Shown in pieces: positions 16,017 through 20,642 of a stretch of DNA of 64,000 bases. The notes beneath the pieces are model-generated. The model was given only the letters and a program-made list of their open reading frames with translations. It did not search any database and was not told the origin of the DNA. A program made the position numbers and the translations under genes. Numbering within the stretch: position 1 is the first letter of the stretch; each line of letters starts with the position of its first letter. This stretch comes from Thermoplasmatales archaeon (GTDB lineage: Archaea; Thermoplasmatota; Thermoplasmata; Thermoplasmatales; Thermoplasmataceae): the NCBI GenBank assembly GCA_026127925.1, contig JAJSLM010000001.1, positions 372,001 to 436,000 on the forward strand, given 5' to 3'.

Positions 16017-17504
16017 TCAATGAAAGATTGAATTGTAAAGGTCCTCACCGTAACTTGTAGGAAGCGGTTTGCCTTCTACGATCTTGAAAGATGGGCTTTC
16101 AGTTTCAAGCCTATTCGCCCTGACGAACATCATCCCATTTCCTCTCTTATCATAATAGGCTGCTGCAAGATCGTATAAATGCGTGACAAAGAATACCTTA
16201 ATATTTTTCTCAATAAGTGCATTGATGATCTGTTTTGCAATCTCCGAACCTTCGATAGAGTTTGTTGCCGCGAAAGATTCATTAAAACAGACAAGACTCC
16301 TTGACATAAGGTGGTCAACAATGAGATTCATCCTGCTCAATTCTTCGTCAAATTTACCTTTATCCATTCCCGCGTCTTCTTCTCTCTTGAAATGAGTAAA
16401 TATAGCGTGCACTATCGGAATTTTTGCATATTCGGCGGAAACAAAGAGTCCGCTTTGCATTAATAATTGAGCCTGGCCCAAGCTTCTTAAGAAAGTCGAT
16501 TTTCCACCTCCGTTTGCTCCGGTTATCACCAGGAGTCTTAGCTTATCTGTACTGAGGTTGTTGCCCACCGGCTTTTTCTGCAACTTTATACCGAGGGATA
16601 TGTCGCAAAGTTCCCTGAATTCCGTAGCGCCGTCAAAGTCCTGTGCTATGGGAAAGACTATGGGCATAGAGGTCTTTTCAATAGCATCGTACAGATTTAT
16701 GCTTGCAACACAAAATCCGATCTCCATCTCAATTTCATTTATGAATCCAAGGACGTTTTCAGCAGAATCCTGTAGTGCATTAGTTACGTCTATTATGGCT
16801 TTTCTTCTCATTGCAGATAATGCCTGCGCACCGGCCTCATCCCTTTCAGGTAAGACATATGTGTAATGGCGATTCCTATGCCTCAATGATATCCTTGGAA
16901 GAGCGTGCTTAATCTCTTTTGGCTTCAGCAGCATATAGTCAGATATCGAATTTGCTTTGCCAATTTTTCCTCTCACACTGATACCGCGCTCGAAGCTTAA
17001 ATTAGCCAAGTGTCTTCTAATATCTCTTATATACTCTGAGCTAAAATTTTTCTGCATAAATTCTACGAGAGAACGGAAACCGTTTGAACTAAACTGATTA
17101 GAATTCCTAATTAATGTGCCCCTAACGTATTCTATCGTATCGATATAGATAGATAATATTGATATGGATTCGTTGAGAATGTATTCCGGGTTGGAACTTC
17201 CCATCCAGAAATGGTGCTCCCTAGCCTTTGAAACCGATTTAAAAAATCGGTCATATATGTCCCTTATAATTTCCGAATTTTTAAGAGAATCCTCGATTAC
17301 TTTTTGGCGATATTTTATAGTATCCTGCTCCATGATAGGATTCAAGACAATCTCCATAGCTATTTTCTTTAGCTCTTTGTCGCCACCAGACATAGCATTA
17401 AACACACGTTCAAGCTCAAAATCTTTCACAAGGTCATTGCTACTCCATGGAAGCTCGTCGAAAACGCGATCACTCTCTTTATTAAACAGTAAAGATGGTC
17501 TCAT
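16017..17504 (-). CDS. MutS-like ATPase A (lacks mismatch-binding domain)
   Basis: 495 residues: a helical MutS lever/core region (about 30-300) and the C-terminal MutS domain V ATPase. Walker A GANGGGKS (329-336) is intact; Walker B reads LVCFNE (404-409), so the usual DE is NE (Asn408-Glu409). The switch histidine is kept in VTHLYD (Thr441-His442). The N-terminal mismatch-recognition domain of bacterial MutS is absent. It overlaps the upstream MutS-like gene by four bases (ATGA), so the two products probably form a heterodimer. DNA repair, recombination or structure recognition is possible; the role is unknown. Confidence 0.85.
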   Translation of the reverse strand: MRPSLLFNKESDRVFDELPWSSNDLVKDFELERVFNAMSGGDKELKKIAMEIVLNPIMEQDTIKYRQKVIEDSLKNSEIIRDIYDRFFKSVSKAREHHFWMGSSNPEYILNESISILSIYIDTIEYVRGTLIRNSNQFSSNGFRSLVEFMQKNFSSEYIRDIRRHLANLSFERGISVRGKIGKANSISDYMLLKPKEIKHALPRISLRHRNRHYTYVLPERDEAGAQALSAMRRKAIIDVTNALQDSAENVLGFINEIEMEIGFCVASINLYDAIEKTSMPIVFPIAQDFDGATEFRELCDISLGIKLQKKPVGNNLSTDKLRLLVITGANGGGKSTFLRSLGQAQLLMQSGLFVSAEYAKIPIVHAIFTHFKREEDAGMDKGKFDEELSRMNLIVDHLMSRSLVCFNESFAATNSIEGSEIAKQIINALIEKNIKVFFVTHLYDLAAAYYDKRGNGMMFVRANRLETESPSFKIVEGKPLPTSYGEDLYNSIFH

Positions 17505-19024
17505 AATTTTATCCGCTCCGATATTCTCTCATAGGTCAGTCCATACTTATCTGCGAGCGCATTGGCATAGGCCAACCCATTTGACTCTTGTCTTAAGATT
17601 TTGAATGTTCTTATTGCAGGATTATCCGGATCAACCTGACTTACCATGCTCACTGTGCCATTAAGTCTGGTCAAGTGATCGATGAAAGTAACGTAAACAC
17701 ACAGCGATCCTCTATCCCTCACTGTTTTTATGATCTTTGTTCCTATGGAAACGGCGTCCATCACGGAAGCAGAACTAAGCATTTCGTTTATTATAACAAT
17801 ACTGTTGGAGGTCGACCTGTTCAGTATTTCTTTTATGCGATGAAGATCATCCTCAAGTTTACTTCTGAGATTTTCAAGGTCTTCGCTTTTTTCAAAATGT
17901 GTGTATATTCCGTCACAAAGAAATAGTTTTGCTTCCGTCCCGGGGACCGGAACGCCCAGCAACCCGAAAAAATGCAGTTGACCAAACGTCCGTGCAAATG
18001 TAGTCTTACCACCATTGTTCGGGCCAGTTACGACAACGATCCTCTCTTTCTCTGACAGGTAAAAATCATTGGTTATGGTTTCTTTTTTTTCCGATGCTAA
18101 TTTGGCTGCAAGTGAAATATCAAAGGTTTCCTTAGCCGTCACTGCTTTACTGTTGGATATTTCAGGAATGCAGAAATGAAGGCCCATATCTTTCATAGGT
18201 CTGAGGAAATCACAGTACGAGATGTAGAATTGCAAATCATTGTAAAAATTTGATACTGTTGCATTCAAAAAATTCTCATTTGATTCATAAAAATTCTTCA
18301 ACTTATTAAACGGTTCATGGAATATCTTTGCAACCAGAGCAAGAATGGCTGCCTCGACGTGAGACATTCCATTGTTTTCTTTTATCCTAAGGCTTTCCTT
18401 GTGTGCGGCATACTCACCGAATCTTTGGAATGATTCAATAATTTCCTTGCTATAATCCTCGCCACCTGAGAATCCAGATACAGTAATTTTTCCACTTCCT
18501 ATAACCATGAGGTATTGCAATTTGGAAAGATCGTAATGTATTTCTTTCGCTGTTTGGGCCAGCGTCTTATAGGCTTCAGAATCTATGTAGTCAAGGAGAA
18601 AATCACGAAAAGAAGCTAGTCCAACCGATCTTATCTTAAGCTTGGAGAATTCATTTGACAAATTTTCAATAGATGAGGAATAGAGCATTACTGCCTCAAG
18701 GAACCATCCTTCTCTCTGATATTCGTAAAGCTTCTCTAGGGCTGATAGGTGTCCATTAACAGTTTTTAGATCAGATGAGAATTTCTTCAAAAGGCCCAAT
18801 AATTTGTCATCCTCGAGATCTCTGAATATAGCCTGCCGAAACTCAATCGCGCTTACGTCATGGAGTGGAGATAGAAACAAAGTCCTCAGTTTAAATTTTT
18901 CAAAGGGCTTAATTATCCTGGAAATGACAGGAGCAAGATTCAAATCCTTGAAGAAATCAGGTTCCGACGCATATTCCTCATAAAAATTTTCCGTAGATGT
19001 TCCAAGCAGACCTTTAAACTCCAT
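17501..19024 (-). CDS. MutS-like ATPase B (partner of ATPase A)
   Basis: 507 residues with the same plan as its neighbour: helical core then MutS domain V. Walker A GPNNGGKT (334-341); Walker B IVIINE (Asn413-Glu414), again NE instead of DE. The switch segment reads VTFIDHL, so the TH histidine kept in ATPase A is missing here. It also lacks domain I and the C-terminal Smr nuclease of MutS2. The start ATG lies exactly where a decayed transposase frame on the other strand begins, so the 5' boundary may have been shaped by an insertion. Full-length by comparison with its partner. Confidence 0.84.
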   Translation of the reverse strand: MEFKGLLGTSTENFYEEYASEPDFFKDLNLAPVISRIIKPFEKFKLRTLFLSPLHDVSAIEFRQAIFRDLEDDKLLGLLKKFSSDLKTVNGHLSALEKLYEYQREGWFLEAVMLYSSSIENLSNEFSKLKIRSVGLASFRDFLLDYIDSEAYKTLAQTAKEIHYDLSKLQYLMVIGSGKITVSGFSGGEDYSKEIIESFQRFGEYAAHKESLRIKENNGMSHVEAAILALVAKIFHEPFNKLKNFYESNENFLNATVSNFYNDLQFYISYCDFLRPMKDMGLHFCIPEISNSKAVTAKETFDISLAAKLASEKKETITNDFYLSEKERIVVVTGPNNGGKTTFARTFGQLHFFGLLGVPVPGTEAKLFLCDGIYTHFEKSEDLENLRSKLEDDLHRIKEILNRSTSNSIVIINEMLSSASVMDAVSIGTKIIKTVRDRGSLCVYVTFIDHLTRLNGTVSMVSQVDPDNPAIRTFKILRQESNGLAYANALADKYGLTYERISERIKL

Positions 19025-19224
19025 ACAAATCGCCTAACCTAAATCCTATAGGATCAGTTAAAGGAGTTATCAGTCACGTCTGGACAATTAACGGGAACTC
19101 CATCCCACCACAACGTATTCGTGAAGACAATTTAACATTTACGATCGTTTATTATGCTCTCAGAAAGGAAGTAAACGCCAAGAATATTAGAGAAACACCC
19201 GCTATTGAATGCGTTCTATCTTAA
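19018..19224 (+). pseudogene. IS630/Tc1-like transposase C-terminal remnant
   Basis: The plus strand is open for 68 codons and ends in TAA at 19222-19224. It begins PYKSPNLNPIGSVKGVI, close to the SPxLNPIExxW block that carries the last acidic residue of IS630-type DDE transposases; the Glu is Gly here. There is no start codon and no upstream catalytic part, so it is a dead end fragment. It fills much of the spacer before the acyl-CoA dehydrogenase and overlaps the start codon of the MutS-like gene on the other strand. Confidence 0.5.
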
Positions 19225-19445
19225 TCACGCTCTACAGCGTATTATGCACGAAAATCGTTGGCCTTACTTAAGGTTCAAATTATAATATCTTAAATAGAAA
19301 ATAAACTTCGCACAACAAAAGTAATGAGTATTATTCCTAAATCAGGTCCGCGGAAAAACTATGACCTGCACCAAAAAGGAAAGATTATAGCATTCAGGTC
19401 ACTAATCCGGGGCTTTCATTCTCGTACCATGGAGAGTTTATAAGG

Positions 19446-19478
19446 GATAAAATATAAACTATACAGTAATCCTCAACA
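19446..19478 (+). promoter_or_regulatory. TATA box for leaderless acyl-CoA dehydrogenase mRNA
   Basis: AAAATATAAA at about 19449-19458 is centred 25 bp before the ATG at 19479, the spacing of a leaderless archaeal transcript. No ribosome-binding sequence is present between them. The rest of the 19225-19445 spacer holds no recognisable gene. Confidence 0.55.
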
Positions 19479-20642
19479 ATGCCTTTCGAACCAGATGACG
19501 AGACGTTAAGCATGCTGAAAAATTCGGTTAAAGAATTCGTTTTAAGAGAAGTTGAACCTATGGCTTCGCGAATCGACAATGAGGATTATTTCCCAGAATC
19601 TGTTTTCAAAAAAATGGGGAAAATGGGATATCTTGGAATAACTGTTCCCGCAGAATATGGAGGTTCAGGTTTGAACATCGCGGCACAGGCAATAATAGAA
19701 GAAGAGCTTGGTTATTCATCGCCTTCTCTGGCACTCTCGTATGGTGCCCACAGCAATTTATGCCTAGACAACTTATATAGGAATGGATCGGAACTGATTC
19801 GAAGGGATTATGTTCCAAAACTTGCATCTGGAGAATGGATAGGTTCTCTAGCTTTAACGGAACCCGGTTCAGGTTCAGATGCATTGGGCATGAAATCCGA
19901 AGCCTGGAAAGATGGTGATAAGATTATCTTGAATGGCTCAAAAACGCTTATCACAAATGCTCCATTTTCTGACCTGTTTCTTGTTTATGCTAGGACAGGC
20001 GATAGTTACTCTGCGTTTGTAGTTCTTAGTTCGGATAAAGGTTTCTCACGGGGGAAAAAGTTCAACAAAATGGGAATGAGGGGATCCCCGACAGGCGAAA
20101 TTTATTTTGATAACATAGTTCTCGGAAAGGATCGGGTCGTAGGGGAATACGGCAACGGTAAAGATATTATCCTATCTGGACTTAATTCTGAGAGAGTCGT
20201 ACTCTCATTCATTTTCATAGGATTAGCGAGAAGAGCGCTGGAAACTGCGATAGAATACTCAACACAAAGAAAACAATTCAATACACATCTCTATCGTTTT
20301 GAACTGATAGAGGAAAAACTTGCTTATATGTATACAAAATATGAGACCAGCAAACTTTTAGCCGAGAAAGCTCTGCGTAATCTTGAGCGGAATCGTATGG
20401 ATTCTCTGAGCGCGGCTGCCGCCATAATGCATTCAACAGAGTCTGCGGAATATATATCGAGAGAAGCCATACAGATCTTGGGTGGTCTCGGATATACAAA
20501 GGACATGGTCGTGGAAAGATTGATGCGAGATGCCATCCTGGGTCAGATAGGAGCGGGCACAACAGAAATCAGGAAGCATCTAATTGCCTCCGCTCTTGTT
20601 AAATCGTTTAAGAAAGATCCAGAAATTCTAGGCAAGGCCTAA
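19479..20642 (+). CDS. Acyl-CoA dehydrogenase, isovaleryl-CoA-dehydrogenase-like
   Basis: 387 residues, normal for the family. FAD-dependent alpha,beta-oxidation of acyl-CoA thioesters. Visible parts: N-terminal helical domain, ALTEPGSGSDALGMKS and the FNKMGMRGSPTGEIYFDN beta-domain, and the C-terminal ILGGLGYTKD and IGAGTTEIRKHLI helices. The residue at the medium-chain catalytic Glu site (before GAGTTEIR) is not Glu; instead Glu238 in LNSERVV aligns with the catalytic Glu of isovaleryl- and long-chain dehydrogenases, which suggests branched-chain substrates. No ETF genes are nearby. Probably leaderless. Confidence 0.9.
   Translation: MPFEPDDETLSMLKNSVKEFVLREVEPMASRIDNEDYFPESVFKKMGKMGYLGITVPAEYGGSGLNIAAQAIIEEELGYSSPSLALSYGAHSNLCLDNLYRNGSELIRRDYVPKLASGEWIGSLALTEPGSGSDALGMKSEAWKDGDKIILNGSKTLITNAPFSDLFLVYARTGDSYSAFVVLSSDKGFSRGKKFNKMGMRGSPTGEIYFDNIVLGKDRVVGEYGNGKDIILSGLNSERVVLSFIFIGLARRALETAIEYSTQRKQFNTHLYRFELIEEKLAYMYTKYETSKLLAEKALRNLERNRMDSLSAAAAIMHSTESAEYISREAIQILGGLGYTKDMVVERLMRDAILGQIGAGTTEIRKHLIASALVKSFKKDPEILGKA

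Follow-up and report, generated by a model that had tools for sequence, protein, structure and literature searches.

A MutS4-type ATPase pair behind a fluoride riboswitch-like element in a Thermoplasmatales archaeon: a probable fluoride-responsive heterodimer

Two overlapping genes of a Thermoplasmatales archaeon (GenBank assembly GCA_026127925.1, contig JAJSLM010000001.1, forward-strand positions 372,001 to 436,000; this 64,000-nucleotide stretch is called the window below) encode MutS-like ATPases, designated ATPase A and ATPase B, that probably form an obligate, fluoride-responsive heterodimer of the MutS4 type. We propose a role in the fluoride response because an RNA of the fluoride-sensing kind precedes the genes, and the data suggest that the pair serves the answer to fluoride rather than ordinary mismatch repair. 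The architecture of the proteins, the asymmetry of their motifs, their linkage and spread, the conserved position of the aptamer and the fluoride genes that neighbour the pair in relatives were read from genome sequences. From these we infer induction by fluoride in this organism, the switch mechanism, the heterodimer, the unequal turnover of its subunits and the effect of an Asn in Walker B.

Architecture and pairing of the two ATPases

The genes and motif codons are as follows (window positions; motif coordinates were computed from the open reading frames, ORFs).

17501..19024, minus strand: ATPase B, upstream gene, MutS4A-type, 507 residues, MutS core (domains III/IV) plus domain V
16017..17504, minus strand: ATPase A, downstream gene, MutS4B-type, 495 residues, MutS core (domains III/IV) plus domain V
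17501..17504, minus strand: ATGA stop/start overlap, 4 bp shared by the ATPase B and ATPase A genes
17783..17788, minus strand: Walker B codons N413-E414 of ATPase B
17684..17686, minus strand: codon of F447, which replaces the switch His in ATPase B
16278..16283, minus strand: Walker B codons N408-E409 of ATPase A
16179..16181, minus strand: codon of the switch residue H442 of ATPase A

A preliminary description of this DNA had taken the two for full-length, overlapping MutS-core genes without a mismatch-recognition domain or Smr nuclease, and both the ORFs and a Pfam scan agree with it. The ATPases matched MutS_V at 80.9 and 70.7 bits, far above the cut-off of 30.2 bits, and end after domain V; MutS_III gave marginal matches only (E 0.18 and 0.0095), and neither protein matched MutS_I (mismatch recognition) or Smr in Pfam. 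Walker A is intact in both (GANGGGKST in A, GPNNGGKTT in B), Walker B reads FNES in A and INEM in B, and the switch is VTH in A and VTF, without the His, in B. In a hidden Markov model alignment the Asn of the Asn-Glu pair aligned with the Walker B Asp of Taq MutS, and in an equal-length local alignment N408 of ATPase A corresponded to position 693 of E. coli MutS, the residue that is changed in the D693N mutant of PDB entry 3k0s (by its title).

Relatives were drawn from 61 genomes of the same archaeal family (the family sample), from a wider phylum sample of 389 genomes and from a scan of 84,980 genomes for relatives of ATPase A, which returned 303; the best 80 of the 303 make up the distant set. 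The Asn-Glu pair, the His of A and the Phe of B had zero exceptions in 22 A and 23 B family orthologues. With distant relatives added, and counting near-duplicate rows of the same archaea, A kept Asn-Glu and His in 100 of 100 rows, and B kept Phe in 98 of 98 and Asn-Glu in 96 of 96 among the matches listed. The Walker B and switch motifs that the preliminary description had singled out (Asn-Glu in both proteins, switch His in A only) are therefore invariant in relatives, and the pattern is more than chance. Its remark that the organism lacks classical MutS and MutL also holds: the genome contains these two MutS_V matches only and no MutL domain (PF01119), which was likewise found in 0 of the 61 family genomes. 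MutS1, the mismatch repair protein, has domain I and a MutL partner, whereas the pair has a match to neither.

Matches to A and B occurred in the same 24 of the 61 family genomes. Whole adjacent pairs are present in 22 of these carriers, and the remaining two are cut by contig ends. In the 80 distant relatives, which come from many phyla, A and B are almost always adjacent, both partners being called as ORFs in 74 of the 80 loci, and the genes overlap by 4 bp in 63 of these 74 as well as in 18 of the 22 family pairs. After rows more than 95% identical had been left out (96 reduced to 79), the A and B distances of the 79 loci correlated at r = 0.941, and 0 of 2000 permutations were as high. Independent occurrence of the two genes across genomes was not found, with one possible exception: the 5.6-kb contig of locus L163 has a MutS4B-type gene (A) but no partner for it; the ORF upstream is on the opposite strand, and the gene may be a solo copy or an assembly fault. 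The comparison of genomes supports an A-B partnership that is obligate and asymmetric, and to this extent the obligate heterodimer proposed in the preliminary description stands. Heterodimer formation as such, like a weaker ATP turnover of B, is predicted from the sequences.

MSH4-MSH5, to which the pair had been likened, is an asymmetric MutS heterodimer without mismatch-recognition function, and in this the pair is alike, its own heterodimer being predicted from co-occurrence and co-evolution. MSH4 and MSH5 are larger proteins and, unlike the pair, have no known fluoride context; the meiosis-like setting implied by the comparison did not hold up, and fluoride genes were found instead.

The pair, whose co-occurrence the preliminary description had asked about within the Thermoplasmatota, is not confined to that phylum: the 303 relatives come from many bacterial phyla, and the type is the known MutS4A/MutS4B. 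Strong B matches were found in 16 of the 389 phylum genomes (15 of the family and one of a sister family). The best 80 include Thermoanaerobacterium, Acidobacteria, Chloroflexi, Rhizobiales, Bacteroidetes, Meiothermus, Mycobacterium, Bathyarchaeota and others, with identities of 37-44% save for one close relative of the window (79%). Among plasmid records, 48 matched A and 45 matched B, and 21 in each search are predicted to be conjugative. Judged by homology, the pair belongs to MutS4 (MutS4A/MutS4B), a rare, horizontally spread and already described type. Passages on Mycobacterium yongonense describe MutS4A and MutS4B as adjacent genes with the first stop over the second start (PMC5742357), an arrangement that the ATGA at 17501-17504 shares, and citing passages trace the subfamily to Lin, Nei and Ma 2007. 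In a tree of A, B and MutS1 rows made without the outgroup frame L005, A and B formed groups of their own against MutS1 (0.805 and 0.987). After rooting, MutS1 did not come out as one group, and the tree gives no branching order for the three.

A riboswitch-like element before the pair and, in distant relatives, fluoride genes beside it

The following features precede or overlap the start of the first gene.

19054..19116, minus strand: fluoride riboswitch aptamer-like element, RF01734, 21.5 bits (below the gathering score of 34 bits)
19097..19101, minus strand: 5' strand of the aptamer pseudoknot, GGAGU (position read from the sequence)
19063..19067, minus strand: 3' strand of the aptamer pseudoknot, ACUCC (position read from the sequence)
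19018..19022, minus strand: second GGAGU, over the start codon of the first gene (AUGGAGU), a putative translational expression platform

The element, which the preliminary description had missed, was the sole Rfam match in 18900-19600 under permissive filters, and lies on the strand of the genes, 30 nt before the start codon. Since its own score is below gathering, we call it riboswitch-like, and the case rests on orthologues above the cut-off. RF01734 matches lie directly before B in most family carriers, and four exceed the cut-off (G398 and G392 at 42.1 bits, G399 at 37.6 and G104 at 34.0), in the same position as in the window. An independent model, trained solely on 34 riboswitches of these genomes that do not adjoin the pair, found an element immediately ahead of B at 21 of the 23 family loci, including three weak cases (L096, L111 and L112, E ~0.4). 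This model gave 24 hits at E <= 1 in 413 kb of sequence from 25 loci, of which two were extra; 23 fell directly ahead of B and the other at a different place in L108.

The same position recurs in distant relatives. Fifty-eight of 64 distant loci were evaluable, the start of B being cut or missing in L125, L142, L163, L166, L186 and L195. The element is directly upstream of B in 36 of the 58 (weakly in L144 and L193), further upstream with same-strand genes between in nine, and ambiguous in three; for L162, L181, L190 and L196, where the independent model gives weak hits, the assignment draws on Rfam rows too. A fluoride riboswitch match was present somewhere in the genome (E <= 0.1) in 40 of 40 and 23 of 24 distant-locus genomes. 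In 47 pair-adjacent elements, that of the window included, P1, P2 and the pseudoknot were paired in 96.3% of cells. The pseudoknot was paired in 47 of 47, and 12 of 13 pairs showed changes on both sides. Covariation over these elements was 0.508, against 0.206 when shuffled and at most 0.175 when slid. The window element keeps the core letters and the full pseudoknot.

A possible switch is visible at the start codon. In the window the ACUCC strand has a possible second partner in the GGAGU that covers the start codon, AUGGAGUU, a pairing adopted in the predicted ligand-free fold. The free-energy fold of the leader was not better than that of shuffles (z -0.94). An exact downstream copy of the complement is present in 14 of 21 archaeal elements, often as the Shine-Dalgarno sequence; because Shine-Dalgarno sequences are GGAG-like anyway, the pairing is only suggestive.

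Other fluoride RNAs were observed in these archaea. A second riboswitch-like element in the same genome (contig C7, 73599-73669; L257:3100-3170, minus strand) scores 25.8 bits, also below the cut-off. It is followed after 14 nt by a Hyf/complex-I-like operon coding for NADHdh, a 214-residue protein and a proton-antiporter subunit; an ArsB-family gene and a small regulator-like ORF lie immediately upstream. The fluoride riboswitch is common in these acidophiles, with 53 of the 61 family genomes at E <= 0.1, although a Fluc/CrcB exporter was found in only one of 61. In three related genomes, matches below cut-off to sR60/sR2/sR20-like C/D-box RNAs lie about 50-90 nt before fluoride riboswitches:

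L259:2082-2136, C/D-box RNA match
L264:2449-2503, C/D-box RNA match
L267:1497-1552, C/D-box RNA match

Genes within about 8 kb of the pair were surveyed in the 64 distant loci (902 ORFs in total). Enolase was found at 15 loci, DUF190 at 11, proton-antiporter subunits of the formate-hydrogenlyase (Hyf) type at 11, CrcB at nine, an Na/H exchanger at eight, Usp at seven and pyrophosphatase at four, and at least one of these groups was present at 38 of the 64. A genome has about one enolase per several thousand genes. With 902 ORFs surveyed almost none would therefore be expected by chance. Passages of PMC11139923 and PMC5533749 list these same gene types for fluoride. On a plasmid of Enterobacter ludwigii, an antiporter and Usp are followed by MutS4A, MutS4B and a P-type ATPase, and these in turn by crcB, phosphoglycerate mutase and enolase; the arrangement closely resembles that of the functional fluoride operon described for E. 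cloacae FRM in PMC5533749. On plasmids of Alicyclobacillus and Rhodococcus the pair has CrcB, MFS and similar genes nearby. Also recurrent at the 64 loci are an MFS transporter (19), a dynamin-like GTPase (13) and a calcineurin-like phosphoesterase (7), which are candidate fluoride-response genes. In the archaeal family no specific neighbour gene was found, and no cluster except the pair itself occurred in more than six of the 24 loci; CrcB, present in only one of the 61 genomes, could not be used for correlation there.

MutS4 in mycobacteria and in the literature

Mycobacterium kyorinense (L187) and four more mycobacteria matched the A5 model at E <= 1.9e-188, and the pair was found in 5 of 148 mycobacterial genomes. 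Homology between these mycobacterial members and the pair of the window is full-length, and the spread of both is patchy and borne by transfer. In five of five mycobacterial loci a riboswitch above gathering lies directly before MutS4A, and Hyf-like genes are near the pair in three of four longer stretches (L278-L281, L187 set). One mycobacterial pair is on an 864-kb plasmid of M. branderi, beside PE/PPE and WXG100 genes. The transferred island of M. yongonense is described as carrying enolase, NADH-dehydrogenase/hydrogenase genes and MutS4 (passages of PMC5742357), a content that fits the fluoride gene set found around the pair, and this 'recombination' island looks like a fluoride island. 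The word 'fluoride' is not present in PMC5742357.

In the passages seen, the literature treats MutS4 as a DNA repair or recombination gene, whereas here its context is fluoride; the pair of F. acidiphilum is listed under mismatch repair in a passage of PMC5473848. Weinberg 2010, in the passage on the crcB RNA (PMC2864571), places that RNA in 5' untranslated regions of 'DNA repair (mutS)' and formate hydrogen lyase genes of bacteria and archaea. This passage names 'mutS' only; the identity with the MutS4 pair, in strict A-B register and with asymmetric motifs, is drawn here. Our literature search returned no paper joining MutS4 with fluoride, which is not proof of absence.

Proposed mechanism and competing explanations

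In the mechanism that we propose, binding of fluoride to the aptamer would allow the pseudoknot to form, which would free the start region of the first gene, and both overlapping genes would then be translated together. The products would be an obligate A-B heterodimer, MutS-like and without mismatch-recognition and Smr domains, and each of its two composite sites would bind ATP. Hydrolysis would take place at that of the downstream subunit (A, with the switch His), while that of the upstream subunit (B, His replaced by Phe) would mainly bind ATP and regulate. With Asn in place of the Walker B Asp in both subunits, Mg2+ should be coordinated less tightly; the ATPase could then go on working while Mg2+ at nucleotide sites is bound up by fluoride. 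The heterodimer would carry the cell through fluoride stress. The first-choice substrate is DNA: with pyrophosphatase and the Mg-dependent enzymes of replication poisoned, the pair may act as a clamp on DNA that is branched or undergoing recombination. We hold this step tentatively, at a little under an even chance; in favour of DNA, passages of PMC5742357 report that homologous recombination in M. smegmatis was raised by the MutS4 operon of M. yongonense.

Several observations weigh against parts of this proposal. The window element stays under the RF01734 gathering score and is not in the gathering scan, and no riboswitch was found at the family pairs G336 and G219 or in 10 of the 58 evaluable distant loci, so that the riboswitch link is strong and not universal. 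A fluoride gene lies beside the pair in 0 of 16 loci of the archaeal family. The M. smegmatis result could be an effect of overexpression. The AlphaFold models (predicted local distance difference test, pLDDT, 83.9 and predicted template modelling score, pTM, 0.83 for A; 88.1 and 0.85 for B) give A a short and poorly predicted clamp region (pLDDT <50 at 172-177 and 192-215), which weakens the DNA-clamp step, and the net charge of the clamp is positive in A (median +4) and near neutral in B (median +1).

An inhibited enzyme is a rather unlikely substrate by comparison, and so is the reading built on it, namely that the pair is a protein-remodelling 'reactivase' that would free fluoride-inhibited Mg enzymes such as enolase and pyrophosphatase from trapped complexes of Mg, fluoride and phosphate. 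Its model is KamC (NF052383), annotated as the reactivase ATPase of lysine 5,6-aminomutase, a B12 enzyme: NCBIfam gives this non-DNA role to a MutS-like ATPase of 508 positions, about the size of A and B. ATPase A matches KamC at 82.5 bits (E 2.8e-23) and B at 58.6 bits, both far below the equivalog cut-off of 300, and A scores no better against KamC than against MutS2 (84.6). A review passage reports the proposal that MutS-like proteins of adenosylcobalamin operons assemble metalloproteins (PMC9164220), and MutL is missing from the family sample. Fluoride-inhibited enzymes are neighbours at the enolase and pyrophosphatase loci counted above, but a shared inducer alone can explain this, and the archaeal loci have no such neighbour. 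The related lead of a B12 reactivase was rejected and serves as an analogy only, since B12-binding domains occur in 59 of the 61 family genomes regardless of the pair and the recurrent neighbour clusters that were inspected included no B12 gene. A step further, and slightly less likely again, is a MutS4 that is itself a fluoride-hardened ATPase, in which the Walker B Asn would cut the need for tight Mg2+, so that the enzyme could cycle under Mg-fluoride and reactivate trapped enzymes or stalled complexes.

Improbable in our view is an action on ribosomes, in which a MutS2-like dimer would split or recycle ribosomes stalled when fluoride poisons Mg-GTPases. MutS2 shares with the pair the lever, clamp and ATPase without domains I and II (passage of PMC10897456), yet it is a single-gene homodimer with KOW and Smr, the domains that recruit it to ribosomes, and the pair has two genes, no KOW and no Smr match. 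The models align nearly full-length with MutS2, and equally well with MutS and MSH chains. For A the matches were 8rz9_A (Z 30.6, root-mean-square deviation, rmsd, 6.8, 409 aligned), 9kce_D of MutS2 (Z 28.5, rmsd 6.2, 397) and 7vuk_B (Z 27.6, rmsd 4.8, 355); for B they were 8omo_A (Z 29.9, rmsd 6.7, 459) and 7vuk_B of MutS2 (Z 28.4, rmsd 3.6, 375). As far as the models go, such fold matches do not separate a DNA from a ribosome function. What probability DNA, enzymes and ribosomes leave over goes to some other substrate.

Two readings without a fluoride role here have very little to commend them. A constitutive recombination heterodimer like MSH4-MSH5 would account for an asymmetric, obligate MutS pair lacking the mismatch domain, but not for a riboswitch at one position in most relatives and fluoride genes around many; the MSH, MutS and MutS2 fold matches are tied and do not single out homology to MSH4-MSH5 proper. 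That the window match is a decayed or chance element would suit its 21.5 bits against a gathering score of 34, and is similarly hard to credit given its position, which is that of over-threshold orthologues, and its intact core and pseudoknot. A defence system was dismissed, the PADLOC hits being P-loop-level only (best E 7.6e-05) and a single phage record matching, at 26% identity.

Under the fluoride-responsive heterodimer that we prefer, joining the 2010 note on fluoride and mutS with the separately named MutS4 provides an orphan subfamily with a stress and an inducer and makes its role simple to test. The island that carries MutS4 in mycobacteria and the plasmid-borne pairs then become likely fluoride-tolerance cargo. 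If the fluoride-hardened ATPase were true, a relative of MutS would have left DNA for the rescue of enzymes, and the 'recombination' island of mycobacteria would instead be one of fluoride resistance. A natural pair with Asn in Walker B would also offer a system for asking how P-loop ATPases live with Mg-fluoride.

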